A stretch of DNA of 64,000 nucleotides, from NCBI RefSeq assembly GCF_007671675.1, contig NZ_VCGW01000002.1, positions 248,001-312,000 on the forward strand. The letters run 5' to 3'. Below are positions 8,468-57,326 of this stretch, piece by piece; the first letter of the stretch is position 1; each line of letters starts with the position of its first letter. The notes beneath the pieces were generated by a model that saw nothing but the letters and a program-made list of their open reading frames with translations, had not been told where the DNA came from and made no database searches. Position numbers and translations under genes: made by a program. This DNA comes from Marinobacter maritimus (GTDB taxonomy: Bacteria; Pseudomonadota; Gammaproteobacteria; Pseudomonadales; Oleiphilaceae).

Positions 8468-8899
8468 CTACTCCTCAACCTGCTTTACGGGAGTGTTGTC
8501 ATCCCAATGTTCAATCAAACGGCAAATAGTATGACCATCCGGCGTACCGTCGGGCATATCCTGCCAGGCAGCCAGTGCCGTCTTCATCCGCTTATGCAAC
8601 TGCTGTAACTCGTTAATCTCTCGCTCCACCTCTGCCAGCCGTTGCTGGAATACATCCCGAACCAAAGGACAGGGCGAGTGATGGTCATCTGCCTGATCCA
8701 GAATTTGACGAACCTCGATCAATGAAAACCCCAACTGACGGGCCTTGCGGGCAAAACGCAGCCGCCGAAGATCCTCAGCGTCGTAATGCTGGTAGTTGTT
8801 ATCGGGGTTCCGAGACGGTTTAAGCAATCCCTCACGTGTGTAAAAACGCACAGTGTCCGGGTTCACACCCGCAGAGGTAGCAAGTTCTTTAACTTTCAT
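8468..8899 (-). CDS. MerR-family heavy-metal-responsive regulator
   Basis: A 143-residue MerR-type activator with an N-terminal winged-helix domain (VNPDTVRFYTREGLL) and a dimerisation helix. Candidate metal ligands are Cys77 (SPCPLV), His123, Cys126 and His132. A Cys near position 77-79 is typical of ZntR/CadR/PbrR-type members, while CueR has Ser there, so metal choice cannot be read simply from the copper ATPase that follows 6 bases downstream. It probably controls its own operon. A long palindromic element ends only 30 bases upstream of its start. Confidence 0.88.
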   Translation of the reverse strand: MKVKELATSAGVNPDTVRFYTREGLLKPSRNPDNNYQHYDAEDLRRLRFARKARQLGFSLIEVRQILDQADDHHSPCPLVRDVFQQRLAEVEREINELQQLHKRMKTALAAWQDMPDGTPDGHTICRLIEHWDDNTPVKQVEE

Positions 8900-8928: not shown

Positions 8929-9038
8929 GCTTTGGTATGGGTGGCCCTTCCGAAAATGCTCGGAGCCAGGGAAGGCGGAGAGCAAGCGTACATGGACGTA
9001 TTCGCAGCGGTTTTCGGAAGGGCCACCCATACCAAAGC
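8929..9038. repeat. Long palindromic intergenic element, copy 1
   Basis: Perfect 28-bp inverted arms at 8929-8956 and 9011-9038 enclose a 54-base core. The core contains CGGAGCCAGGGA, AGCGTACA and GGACGTATTC in that order. The same core, in reverse orientation, lies inside the element at 56276-56384, whose arms are different in sequence but again perfectly complementary. No protein-coding logic is visible. The element lies between the zinc-ribbon gene and the merR start, so it is probably transcribed in the leader of the copper operon. This looks like a dispersed structured repeat family. Confidence 0.9.
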
Positions 9039-9500: not shown

Positions 9501-11768
9501 TTACAAATCTGTACCGGCCGTTGCAAGCTTTTCGAGAGCGCCGCTGTCCAACGCTTTTTCCAGCTTTGCTACAGGAACAGGGCGGCTGATCAGATAGCCT
9601 TGAACCACATCACAACCTTGGCTCTTGAGCAAATCCAGTTGGGGTTGAGTTTCTACGCCCTCGGCAACCACTCGCAAACCAAGGTTGTGAGCGAGATTAA
9701 TCACTGCCCGGGTGATCACGGCATCATCATGGCGTTCCGTGATTTCGGTGATGAATGAGCGGTCGATCTTCAGGATGTCTACCGGGAAATCTCTCAGGTA
9801 GGCCAGGGAAGAATAACCGACGCCGAAATCGTCAATCGCCAGGTGCACGCCAAGCTCGTGCAGTCGCGTTAGCTGATCCAGGTTGTGCTCAATGTTTTGA
9901 ATAAAGATTTCCTCAGTCAGCTCAACTTCAAGCCGATTCGCCGGAATATCCTTGGCTTCCAGAGCATCGCGTATACGTTCGACCAGATTTTCGTCGTCCA
10001 GCTCGCGTCCACATAGGTTTACCGCTACGGTGAAGCTCTCGAAGCGGGTTCCCTTCCAGGCCGCTAACTGCCGGCAGGCAGCCATCACTACCCAGCGCCC
10101 GATATCCGCAATCCGCCCGCTTTCTTCTGCCAGCGGAATAAACGCAGCCGGTGGCAGAAGGCCCCGGCGAGGATGCTGCCACCGGATAAGCGCTTCGACA
10201 CTGTTGATTTCGCCACTCTTCAGGTTCAACTGTGGCTGGTAATAGAGCACAAATTCGTTATTGGCAAGGGCCTGGCTGAGGTCTTTTTCCAGCTCCAGGC
10301 GCATCACTTCCCGCTCCTGCATCCCTTCGGTATAGAACTGGTAGGTATTACGACCCTGTTCTTTGGCGCGATACAGTGCGATGTCAGCGTTGCGCAAGAG
10401 GATATCGGCGTCGAGGCCGCTATGCGGGTATACGGCAACGCCGAGAGTCGAGGTAATGCTATGGGCTTCATCCTGGACAACAAAAGGCGACTCGAAACAC
10501 TGCTTGATCAGCCCTAGCAGGTGAATGACATCATCAATATCTTCAACATGCTGTTGGCAGATCATGAATTCATCGCCACCAGAGTAGGCCACCGTGATAC
10601 ATTCATTACTTAACTGATTCAGTCGATCGGCCACCTTAACCAGAAGTTCATCACCAAACTGGTGTCCAAGCGAGTCATTCAGCATTTGGAAACGGTCGAG
10701 GTCCAGCATCACCAGCGCCACCTGCCGCATTTGGCGATCCGCAATATTCAGCGTATGGGCCAGATCCTCCATGAAGAAACGCCGGTTAGCCAGCCCGGTG
10801 AGCACATCGGTGGACTCCAGTCGCACCAGGTCTTTCTGAATGGTTTTGCGCTGTGCAATTTCCTCGTCCAGTTCACGCCGGGTTGTCAGTAGATCCTGAT
10901 TGCGCTTCAGCATGAGCTGGAGCAATAGGGTCGTGAGGCTGGTTAGCAGGCCCATAACGAGTAGGGTAACGAAGGTCCAGCGAGGCCAGGGGCTACGCTG
11001 TTTGTCTACCCATGCCGGTGATGGCTCAAGAGTCAGTTGCCACTCCTGGGTAGGAAGCTTCACCGGCACGGTGTAAGAGATGGGGTCTCCGGTGCTTTCA
11101 AAATCACCCAGCGTATAAACCGGGGCCCCTTGGCTGTGAATCTTTATCCGGAACATGGCCGACTCGCGGCTTGCCAACAGTTGGCGTACCAGAGTTTCCA
11201 CCCTTACCACTCCCGCCACGAAGCCATTATTATCTGGCCCGGTGTCGACCGGCGCATAAATGACAACGCCTTTGCCGCCCTGGCGCAGCTCTATCACTCC
11301 TGAAACGTCATAATTTCCGGATTGCCTGGCCGCCTCCAGAGCCATGAGACGCTTTTGATCAAACGCAGCGTTGAAGCCAAGCACGTTCTCATTGCCGGCA
11401 GCCGGTACCAGCCAGCGAATGATAAAATCACGGTCTATCCACTCGATGGCCTGATAGATGCGGAAGTCTTCCAGGTGATTGAGCGCATCCTCGCGCCATT
11501 CGCTCTCCGGCGTTTTCGGATCTATTGCCAGACGGCTAGCTATCCGCTCAATAGCATTGGTATGAACCATAAACTCCCATTCCAGGGTGCTGGCCATACT
11601 TCGGGCTTCGTTTTCAAGGTTGGCCTGTATTTGGCCTGTGTACTGGTGGATCAGGCCGTACCGGAGCCCCGCTGCCATGGCAAGAAAAACAAGGAAGATT
11701 ACGACAGGAACGGCGGGATGCAGCAGTCGCTTGACCAAGAGCCCAAATTTATAGGGGGGGTGTTCCAA
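9501..11768 (-). CDS. CHASE-type sensor GGDEF-EAL protein (c-di-GMP turnover)
   Basis: A 755-residue membrane protein combining a sensor with both cyclic di-GMP enzymes. Helices at about 20-40 and 264-286 bracket a CHASE-like periplasmic domain. The GGDEF motif is intact (397-401) but no RxxD inhibitory site precedes it. The EAL domain retains EAL (525-527), the DDFG metal-binding motif (646-649) and EGVET (703-707), so phosphodiesterase activity is likely. The listed start is a TTG with GGAG upstream. A run of seven C on the coding strand falls at codons 4-6, so the start region could be slippage-prone. Confidence 0.9.
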   Translation of the reverse strand: MEHPPYKFGLLVKRLLHPAVPVVIFLVFLAMAAGLRYGLIHQYTGQIQANLENEARSMASTLEWEFMVHTNAIERIASRLAIDPKTPESEWREDALNHLEDFRIYQAIEWIDRDFIIRWLVPAAGNENVLGFNAAFDQKRLMALEAARQSGNYDVSGVIELRQGGKGVVIYAPVDTGPDNNGFVAGVVRVETLVRQLLASRESAMFRIKIHSQGAPVYTLGDFESTGDPISYTVPVKLPTQEWQLTLEPSPAWVDKQRSPWPRWTFVTLLVMGLLTSLTTLLLQLMLKRNQDLLTTRRELDEEIAQRKTIQKDLVRLESTDVLTGLANRRFFMEDLAHTLNIADRQMRQVALVMLDLDRFQMLNDSLGHQFGDELLVKVADRLNQLSNECITVAYSGGDEFMICQQHVEDIDDVIHLLGLIKQCFESPFVVQDEAHSITSTLGVAVYPHSGLDADILLRNADIALYRAKEQGRNTYQFYTEGMQEREVMRLELEKDLSQALANNEFVLYYQPQLNLKSGEINSVEALIRWQHPRRGLLPPAAFIPLAEESGRIADIGRWVVMAACRQLAAWKGTRFESFTVAVNLCGRELDDENLVERIRDALEAKDIPANRLEVELTEEIFIQNIEHNLDQLTRLHELGVHLAIDDFGVGYSSLAYLRDFPVDILKIDRSFITEITERHDDAVITRAVINLAHNLGLRVVAEGVETQPQLDLLKSQGCDVVQGYLISRPVPVAKLEKALDSGALEKLATAGTDL

Positions 11769-55318: not shown

Positions 55319-56179
55319 ATGGGTACGAGCTTACAGCTCATTGAAAGACTGGTTCCGGGCGCCAATCTCGAGGCTTACATCCAGGCCGCGAGCCGCATCC
55401 CGGTACTTACCGTGGATGAAGAGCGGGAACTGGCTGAGCGTCTTCACTACGATGAAGACGTAGACGCGGCCCGTCAGATGGTACTGTCGCACCTGCGTTT
55501 TGTTATTCACATTGCTCGCAGCTATTCAGGCTACGGCTTGGCGCAGGCAGACCTGATCCAGGAAGGCAACGTGGGCCTGATGAAGGCCGTTAAACGTTTC
55601 AATCCCGAATACGGTGTCCGACTGGTTTCCTTTGCCGTGCACTGGATCAAGGCGGAAATTCACGAGTTTATTCTGCGCAACTGGCGCATCGTGAAAGTGG
55701 CCACCACCAAGTCCCAGCGCAAACTGTTTTTCAATCTGCGCAGCCAGAAGAAAAAGCTGGCCTGGTTGAGCCACGATGAGCTGCACGCAGTAGCTGAAGA
55801 TCTGGGTGTTGAACCAAGAGTCGTGCGTGAAATGGAAGGTCGGTTGTCTTCCCATGACACCGCATTTGATGGTCCCATGGATGATGACGAAGACAGCGCT
55901 TATAAAGCACCGGCGTATTATCTCGAAGATCGTCGCAGCGATCCGGCTGTCCAGCTTGAAAATTCGGACTGGACGGAGGATTCCAACGGGCGCCTGATGG
56001 AAGCGTTGGAAATGCTTGATGAGCGCAGTCAGGATATCCTGCGTGAGCGCTGGTTATCTGAAAGCAAGGCAACGCTTCATCAGTTGGCCGACAAGTACGG
56101 CATCTCTGCTGAGCGCATTCGCCAGCTTGAGAAGAATGCGATGAAGAAGATCCGGTTGCAGATGGTTGAAGCTGCCTGA
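55319..56179 (+). CDS. rpoH: RNA polymerase heat-shock sigma factor sigma-32
   Basis: Directs RNA polymerase to heat-shock promoters. The 286-residue protein shows region 2 ([38 protein letters not shown]), the RpoH box (QRKLFFNLR, about 132-140) and region 4 ([15 protein letters not shown]). GGAGG precedes the ATG. It follows ftsX by about 200 bases containing a strong dyad and is ended by an intrinsic terminator. Confidence 0.97.
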
Positions 56180-56275: not shown

Positions 56276-56384
56276 GAAACGATTGGGCAGGCCTTTCCAA
56301 AACACGCTGTGAATACGTCCGTGTACGCTCGGCTCCGCCATCCCTGGCTCCGCACGGTTTTGGAAAGGCCTGCCCAATCGTTTC
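56276..56384. repeat. Long palindromic intergenic element, copy 2
   Basis: Perfect 28-bp arms at 56276-56303 and 56357-56384 enclose a 53-base core. The core is the reverse complement of the core at 8957-9010, with GAATACGTCC, TGTACGCT and TCCCTGGCTCCG in that order on the plus strand. The arm sequence differs from copy 1 at about six of 21 aligned positions, yet each arm pair is perfectly matched. It sits between the rpoH terminator and the start of the next gene. Confidence 0.9.
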
Positions 56385-56414: not shown

Positions 56415-57326
56415 ATGACAAGAAAACTCCCTCAGATCGCATTTCTCGGCATTGGCCTGATGGGCACCCCCATGACCCGTAACCTGCTCGATGCAGGCTT
56501 TCCGATGACCTTGTGGAACCGCACGACCAGCAAGTGCGAGCCGTTTGCCAGTGAAGCAACAGTTGCCGACGCCCCTGCAGATGCCGTGCGAAGCGCAGAT
56601 GTTGTGATTACCATGCTGGAAAACAGCGATGTGGTGGAACAAGTGCTGGTTGCAAGCGGAGCTATGGAAGCCCTGAAGCCGGGAGCTCTGGTGATTGATA
56701 TGAGCTCCGTTCAGCCGTCGGTCGCCCGCTGTCACGCTGCTCTTGCGGCCGAAAAAGGCGTAGGTTATGTGGATGCGCCGGTTTCCGGTGGCACCCTGGG
56801 TGCCCAGGAAGCACGCTTGAGCATCATGGCTGGTGGTTCGGAGGACGATGTGTCCCGGGCTCGGCCGGTGTTTGAGGTGTTGGGCAAATGCACGAGGATC
56901 GGCCCTGTGGGGGCCGGGCAGCTTGCCAAGCTGGCGAACCAGGCGATTGTGGGAATTACCATTGGGGCGGTGTCTGAAGCCCTGTTGCTGGCCGCCAAGG
57001 GCGGCGCTGATCCGGCAGCGGTGCGCGAGGCGCTGATGGGTGGCTTTGCCGGCAGCCGGATTCTGGAGTTGCACGGTCAGCGCATGATTGACCGGGATTT
57101 TGCACCCGGGGCGCCTGCCCGAATCCAGTTGAAGGATCTGCGTATGATTCTGGATGAGGCTCGGGCAGAGGGGCTAACGTTGCCACTGTCGCAACAGGTG
57201 CATAATGAATATCTGTCTTTGGTCGCTAATGGCCACAGTGATGCTGATCACAGCGGTTTGTTGCTGGAGTTGGAGCATATTAACGGAACCCGCCTCGGTG
57301 CCACTGGCCCGGGCCCCAAGGAGTAA
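56415..57326 (+). CDS. NAD(P)-dependent beta-hydroxyacid dehydrogenase (tartronate semialdehyde reductase-like)
   Basis: A 303-residue dehydrogenase of the 3-hydroxyisobutyrate family. It has the nucleotide motif FLGIGLMGTPM (about 10-20), the substrate loop DAPVSGGTLGAQ, and the catalytic Lys in LAKLANQ (about 176). The neighbour 6 bases downstream is hydroxypyruvate isomerase-like, which points to GarR/GlxR, reducing tartronate semialdehyde to glycerate. No glyoxylate carboligase gene is in view, so the specific substrate remains inferred. Confidence 0.87.
   Translation: MTRKLPQIAFLGIGLMGTPMTRNLLDAGFPMTLWNRTTSKCEPFASEATVADAPADAVRSADVVITMLENSDVVEQVLVASGAMEALKPGALVIDMSSVQPSVARCHAALAAEKGVGYVDAPVSGGTLGAQEARLSIMAGGSEDDVSRARPVFEVLGKCTRIGPVGAGQLAKLANQAIVGITIGAVSEALLLAAKGGADPAAVREALMGGFAGSRILELHGQRMIDRDFAPGAPARIQLKDLRMILDEARAEGLTLPLSQQVHNEYLSLVANGHSDADHSGLLLELEHINGTRLGATGPGPKE

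Follow-up and report, generated by a model that had tools for sequence, protein, structure and literature searches.

A dispersed palindromic element in Marinobacter and other Gammaproteobacteria: a probable multicopy TwoAYGGAY-type RNA with a putative dual CsrA site

Two palindromes of Marinobacter maritimus, found in the 64,000-nucleotide stretch of DNA analysed here and called the window below (contig NZ_VCGW01000002.1, positions 248,001 to 312,000), are copies of a real and widespread structured element. This element is best read, with a probability a little under 0.6, as a dispersed multicopy RNA of the TwoAYGGAY type that carries a putative dual site for one CsrA dimer. A transcript of the strand that bears the GGA loops (the GGA strand) would fold into an outer stem of about 28 bp, largely free in sequence and kept in pairing, around a junction with two ANGGA-loop hairpins.

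Both palindromes lie where the original prediction had placed them, each with perfect inverted arms of 28 bp (Table 1), and they are the only perfect pairs among the 25 longest of the 44 inverted pairs listed for the window. That prediction described a shared core of about 53 bases with few differences; the loops between the arms measure 54 nt in copy 1 and 53 nt in copy 2 and, when aligned by eye, are separated by about nine substitutions and one gap. It also counted about six differences over 21 aligned arm positions, where the inner 21 positions hold seven and the full 28 hold 12. Its statement that every change is matched in the opposite arm is correct, because both arm pairs are perfect. 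The two copies are in opposite orientation, with GGA loops on the plus strand at 8929-9038 and on the minus strand at 56276-56384. Copy 1 is flanked by a MerR-type regulator gene (8468-8899, minus) and a CHASE-GGDEF-EAL gene (9501-11768, minus), and copy 2 by a sigma-70-family gene (55319-56179, plus), presumably RpoH-like from its size and layout, and a 3-hydroxyisobutyrate-dehydrogenase-like gene (56415-57326, plus). The GGA strand of either copy is antisense to both flanking genes and would therefore need antisense transcription or transcription of its own.

Table 1. Position and parts of the two copies of the element in the window
Feature	Coordinates	Strand	Details
Element copy 1, 110 nt	8929..9038	+ (GGA strand)	R1 84 bits; TwoAYGGAY 33.2 bits, full length
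Copy 1 left arm, 28 nt	8929..8956	+	Perfect complement of 9011-9038
Copy 1 hairpin 1	8957..8984	+	ANGGA motif AGGGA at 8968-8972; from sequence, fold and covariation
Copy 1 hairpin 2	8986..9008	+	CsrA-like GUACAUGGACGU; motif ATGGA at 8992-8996; 2 departures from SELEX consensus
Copy 1 right arm, 28 nt	9011..9038	+	
Element copy 2, 109 nt	56276..56384	- (GGA strand)	R1 97.9 bits; TwoAYGGAY 31.9 bits, full length
Copy 2 left arm, read on GGA strand	56357..56384	-	
Copy 2 hairpin 1	56331..56353	-	ANGGA motif at 56341-56345; from sequence and fold
Copy 2 hairpin 2	56306..56328	-	ANGGA motif at 56318-56322; 2 departures from SELEX consensus
Copy 2 right arm, read on GGA strand	56276..56303	-	

On the GGA strand, two hairpins are enclosed by a long outer stem of about 28 bp. 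The stem of hairpin 1 varies, being often GCC/GGC above a GGA/GGA internal loop and elsewhere plain, and the tip of this hairpin nearly always carries ANGGA; exceptions include L023 and L125, and 12 of 234 copies have no scorable motif. Hairpin 2 follows the scheme GC-N-TAC-ANGGAN-GTA-TTCAC-N'-GC, with a bulge on the 3' side. Its N and N' are mostly G and A, a non-standard pair, and this third outer pair is unpaired in 48 of the 52 diverse copies assembled in alignment A1; variants exist with C-G or T-A at N/N' or with a CAC/GTG stem. In A1, 87.1% of the cells assigned to pairs are indeed paired, whereas shuffles reach 57.3% and slid controls 32.0-42.4%; covariation is 0.732, as compared with 0.181 after shuffling. 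Two-sided changes affect all 24 modelled outer pairs and six of the seven hairpin-1 pairs, three middle pairs of hairpin 1 being often non-standard. The number of pairs with a two-sided change, one of five covariation measures, is no higher than in shuffles (31 against 29.8, with 119 of 500 shuffles as high) owing to the high variability of the columns. In A1, the inner stem of hairpin 2 is nearly invariant and says little on covariation. A covariance model, R1, was built from these 52 copies, as the original prediction had proposed, and stem pairing is kept in them while the sequence changes.

The strand on which folding is favoured can be read from the arm positions left unpaired. In a set of 234 copies, chosen by core pattern and a strand-symmetric arm filter (arm score of at least 10, loop of 40-160) and including orthologs, G.T outnumbers A.C on the GGA strand by 130 to 29, G.G outnumbers C.C by 31 to 2 and A.G outnumbers C.T by 58 to 12. 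Among the 129 copies outside ortholog sets, G.T is in excess in 52 and A.C in 10. The mismatches tolerated by a folded GGA strand therefore exceed their complements, and this asymmetry points to the GGA strand. A transcription bias is an unlikely cause since the copies are of mixed orientation to genes (16 sense and 15 antisense among codirectional ones). By setting in the source genome, from which the window was taken, the ratio of G.T to A.C is 19:3 for sense, 11:1 for convergent and 10:3 for divergent copies, and the wobble bias is weak in the antisense class (8:6). Covariation and mismatch asymmetry together support selection on a folded single strand, one of the two explanations first offered for the maintained pairing.

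The element is present in many copies. With up to three mismatches allowed, the core pattern occurs at 26 places in the source genome, window copies included, and its reversed control at none. All 26 matches are flanked by inverted arms, 20-33 bp long and differing by 0-4 mismatches, nine of them being free of mismatches over the length reported; the element is thus neither confined to two copies nor flanked by non-complementary arms elsewhere, either of which would have spoken against the original prediction. In a survey of 61 genomes of the genus, the source genome among them, 56 contained matches, with 0 to 55 per genome and no control match. In a public species collection, at least 119 stretches carry the core pattern, and the genera among the matches listed are Marinobacter, Halomonas, Vreelandella, Microbulbifer, Thiofilum, Pectobacterium, Rheinheimera, Zobellella, Catenovulum, Saccharospirillum and others. 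Pattern matches also occur in bins labelled Klebsiella pneumoniae and Nitratireductor (L125, L134, L101), which may be contaminant contigs. The R1 model, with 150 of 1237 candidates scored, finds 62 copies in the source genome at E<=0.01. It has matches in 52 of 276 genomes sampled from Gammaproteobacteria, with 14 candidates scored per genome.

Three of the 26 pattern-found copies of the source genome are long forms, in which the loop extends to 136-137 nt and extra hairpins occur. Long forms are also seen in L021, L041, L042, L267 and L271, where the extra hairpins lie near the tip of hairpin 1 and some bring more GGA loops. The same orthologous place holds a long form in some genomes and a short form in others. 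Short forms were found in at least 39 of 50 orthologous stretches at locus 1 and at least 31 of 50 at locus 2; these stretches were taken as the best BLAST hits from 124 genomes, and the counts therefore do not measure how frequent the element is in the genus. One stretch, L194, carries the element by eye and fell under the arm threshold of the script. Among 14 further locus-2 stretches are some with a long form, with a different hairpin 2, with arm remnants or without any element. At these orthologous places the element is old and has been lost at times. In one genome (G078), a group II intron with three Rfam matches over gathering lies between the upstream terminator and the locus 2 element (L266 695-2497).

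The original prediction could name no described family. This part does not hold: the Rfam family TwoAYGGAY (RF01731) matches each window element, searched alone, on the GGA strand and over its full length (alignment 1-168), with 33.2 and 31.9 bits, below the gathering threshold of 43. A scan of the whole window up to E=5 returned five matches below gathering, TwoAYGGAY not among them. In the source genome, the same model gives 29 matches at E<=1, one of which reaches gathering (43.8 bits), and none in 14 control genomes. All 29 coincide with R1 copies on the same strand, as judged by eye from the coordinate lists; the window copies are not among these 29. The element shares with TwoAYGGAY the strand, two hairpins with GGA in the terminal loop and an outer stem closing both. 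It differs in being shorter, with long well-paired arms, loops of the wider type ANGGAN instead of AYGGAY, and dozens of dispersed copies. TwoAYGGAY is listed for the human gut, gammaproteobacteria and Clostridiales (Weinberg et al. 2010, PMC2864571) and has been proposed to bind CsrA (PMC4333381); Rfam types it as Cis-reg, where the discovery table has 'n' for cis-reg (PMC2864571). A second family, Ysr224 (RF02770), matches the Pectobacterium copy L100 with 73.3 bits (gathering 70) on the opposite strand, and window copy 2 with 14.8 bits, under that gathering. Ysr224 is an enterobacterial relative, its core being homologous in the Pectobacterium copy; Rfam models its RNA on the strand opposite GGA. 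This Yersinia sRNA has been reported to occur in multiple copies, whose expression profiles differ in Y. ruckeri, and to rank among the most prevalent sRNA families (PMC9029176, PMC12112432). Among the literature matches listed, no paper joins TwoAYGGAY with Ysr224 or describes the element as a dispersed CsrA-like repeat. Matches of the element to miRNA and other eukaryotic Rfam families were rejected, as they reflect the long hairpin only.

The two loops resemble sites of CsrA. The SELEX consensus for this protein is RUACARGGAUGU, presented mostly in hexaloops closed by AC/GU, and CsrA bridges sites 10-63 nt apart with an optimum near 18 (PMC7652899). Two ANGGA motifs are present in 56 of the 59 short-form copies found by R1 in the source genome, at a spacing of 18, 19, 20 and 33 nt in 29, 22, 1 and 4 of them; 51 of 56 thus fall at 18-19 nt, and all, at 18-33 nt, lie inside that bridging range. 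Hairpin 2 shows 0, 1, 2 and 3 departures from the consensus in 55, 102, 70 and 7 of the 234 copies, a comparison that is partly circular because these copies were picked by a pattern containing most of the consensus. Hairpin 1 fits it poorly, with four mismatches in 137 of 234. The CsrA domain PF02599 was found in 242 of the 276 class genomes, in 51 of the 52 R1-positive ones against 191 of the 224 R1-negative ones (p 0.005, one-sided; the lists were matched by eye); this association may reflect genome reduction. In the remaining R1-positive genome, G298, no CsrA was found over the cut-off, the relaxed search included.

Most probably, transcripts of the GGA strand would offer one CsrA (or RsmA) dimer two sites, mostly 18-19 nt apart, and many copies together could act as local docking sites or as a distributed decoy. 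CsrB, CsrC and RsmX/Y/Z are decoy RNAs of CsrA. Like them, the element has GGA in hairpin loops and would be expected to bind CsrA. Those RNAs come from dedicated genes with many sites each, whereas the element has two sites per short copy and many copies.

The evolution of the arms is the most unusual part of the element. Along spanning-tree edges at two orthologous loci (50 of 68 edges kept, 18 being dropped for more than 9 changed pairs or a flank distance >=0.30), 135 double and 60 single changes were counted in the arms. On the same edges, the per-base divergence is 0.118 in arms, 0.045 in loops and 0.140 in flanks, and four-fold sites carry 0.44 substitutions per site (51 edges, nearly the same set). 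A 16-state mutation-selection model, set to the standing mismatch and wobble frequencies and to this four-fold divergence, expects 20 doubles (13 by transition, 7 by transversion) and 103 singles; 84 and 51 doubles are seen, six- to seven-fold above the model. The 51 transversion doubles cannot pass through G.U. Under the model the doubles would need a clock about four times faster, and six two-class mixture models still leave their excess unexplained. In addition, the orthologs L298 and L305 have in common an indel of 2 bp with a matching counterpart in the opposite arm. A third locus gives 181 doubles and 32 singles after swaps are allowed, and is left out of this count because orthology is uncertain there.

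These results suggest that arm-to-arm copying acts besides selection, and both can act together. The idea of a copying mechanism that rebuilds palindromes, already part of the original prediction, gains support from the excess of doubles and from the matched indel. Changes in one arm would be copied to the other by template switching or by conversion inside the palindrome, and the arms would stay paired partly for this reason. A role for template switching in the origin and maintenance of RNA hairpins has been proposed (PMC8794818). The doubles may also arise by conversion from other copies. An unlikely alternative is that the arms stay paired by ordinary selection and independent compensatory changes, no copying being involved. 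It is in line with the excess of G.T states and with several close ortholog pairs that differ by single changes alone, but it is at odds with the observed proportion of doubles to singles and with the number of transversions among the doubles.

A more far-reaching form of the preferred reading is a genome-wide, distributed CsrA decoy made of dozens of separately located RNA copies that have spread and persisted across gammaproteobacteria, with long stems continually rewritten by palindrome-templated copying, so that pairing and not sequence is inherited, and with inverted pairs flipping as units. It is put forward tentatively, as a possibility that we rather doubt.

REP/BIME and MITE repeats are short dispersed intergenic palindromes, and like the element they sometimes form inverted pairs. 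It could be supposed that the element is likewise a mobile palindrome acting at the level of DNA, folded as single-stranded DNA for recognition by a transposase or replication enzyme, its likeness to CsrA sites being secondary. Folded single-stranded DNA would be compatible with the mismatch asymmetry too, the range in pattern matches per genome across the genus is wide, and the copies have no preferred orientation to genes. The source genome moreover holds four head-to-head inverted pairs. One of them, located between convergent genes at C4:181 kb (L335 1504-1800), is shared by 26 of 27 full-length best-hit relatives (L353-L379), and its members are swapped between close relatives, among them L360 and L373, which show 12 and 10 pair differences when compared straight and 2 and 5 when swapped. 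The swap looks as if the whole pair had been inverted. This mobile-DNA explanation is nevertheless rather improbable. REP/BIME and MITE repeats have conserved ends, whereas here the core and loops are conserved and the arms vary from copy to copy; conserved terminal inverted repeats of the MITE kind were not seen, the flanks carrying only a weak motif. Many species carry the element at an identical genomic position, and arm remnants persist in some that lack it. The linked REP-associated transposase that the original prediction had suggested looking for did not appear: more than 100 kb separates both Y1_Tnp matches of the source genome (C5:992-999 kb) from the closest R1 copy listed for that contig. 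No phage matched, and plasmids gave six records, one of them covering at least 80% of the query. REP and MITE readings are not supported, Rfam being the database searched for a family match.

The flanks show two minor regularities in the source genome: a weak motif, approximately CnCCRAA, reaching up to 0.55 bits per position in the first 24 nt after the right arm, and the recurrence of AGGCTA within 25-30 nt after several copies.

The genomic setting led us to weigh a structural role at 3' ends, either as a bidirectional terminator or as a protector of mRNA ends, the loops being incidental. With genes called by a simple open-frame rule, the 62 source-genome copies are convergent in 24 cases, codirectional sense in 16, codirectional antisense in 15 and divergent in 7, with no preferred orientation, and the 48 element-free gaps of the same stretches are convergent in 8, codirectional in 31 and divergent in 9. 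In raw counts, convergent gaps are thus favoured (24/62 against 8/48), and, where a neighbouring gene ends at the element, the model match begins no more than 60 nt from it in 22 of 40 cases upstream (GGA side) and in 30 of 39 downstream. A scan of a single inverted pair (L335 1450-1880) gave five terminator-like sites, where shuffles gave 0.3; these sites arise from the inner hairpins together with the T-rich inner end of the arms. Against such a role, seven sites are divergent, termination does not need conserved ANGGA loops, and each window copy has, by eye, a separate terminator-like hairpin between it and the upstream gene. Beyond the outer stem, TTTT follows within 14 nt in one of the 62 copies on the GGA strand and in four on the opposite strand, and a terminator acting through such a T-run was rejected on account of this rarity. 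Taken as a whole, the 3'-end explanation is improbable. The same region of L335, the one scanned for promoters, contains no sigma-70-like site.

At locus 3, one genome without elements (L386, G044) has an empty convergent site with an ordinary terminator-like hairpin, arms TAGCCTTT/AAAGGCTA. This site gave rise to the idea that the element inserts into the loop of a pre-existing terminator. As a general rule this was rejected, the complementarity of upstream and downstream flanks being near that of shuffled partners in 60 source-genome copies (mean 5.77 against 5.68; at least 7 in 15 copies against 9.9 expected, at least 8 in 4 against 2.9).

If the dispersed TwoAYGGAY-type RNA favoured here is indeed transcribed, about 60 two-site copies in one genome would constitute a large set of CsrA sites overlooked until now, and a single element would bring together the orphan Rfam families TwoAYGGAY and Ysr224. 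Whatever its function, the presence of many long stems at orthologous places makes the choice between one-by-one and template-switched compensatory change directly testable in bacteria.
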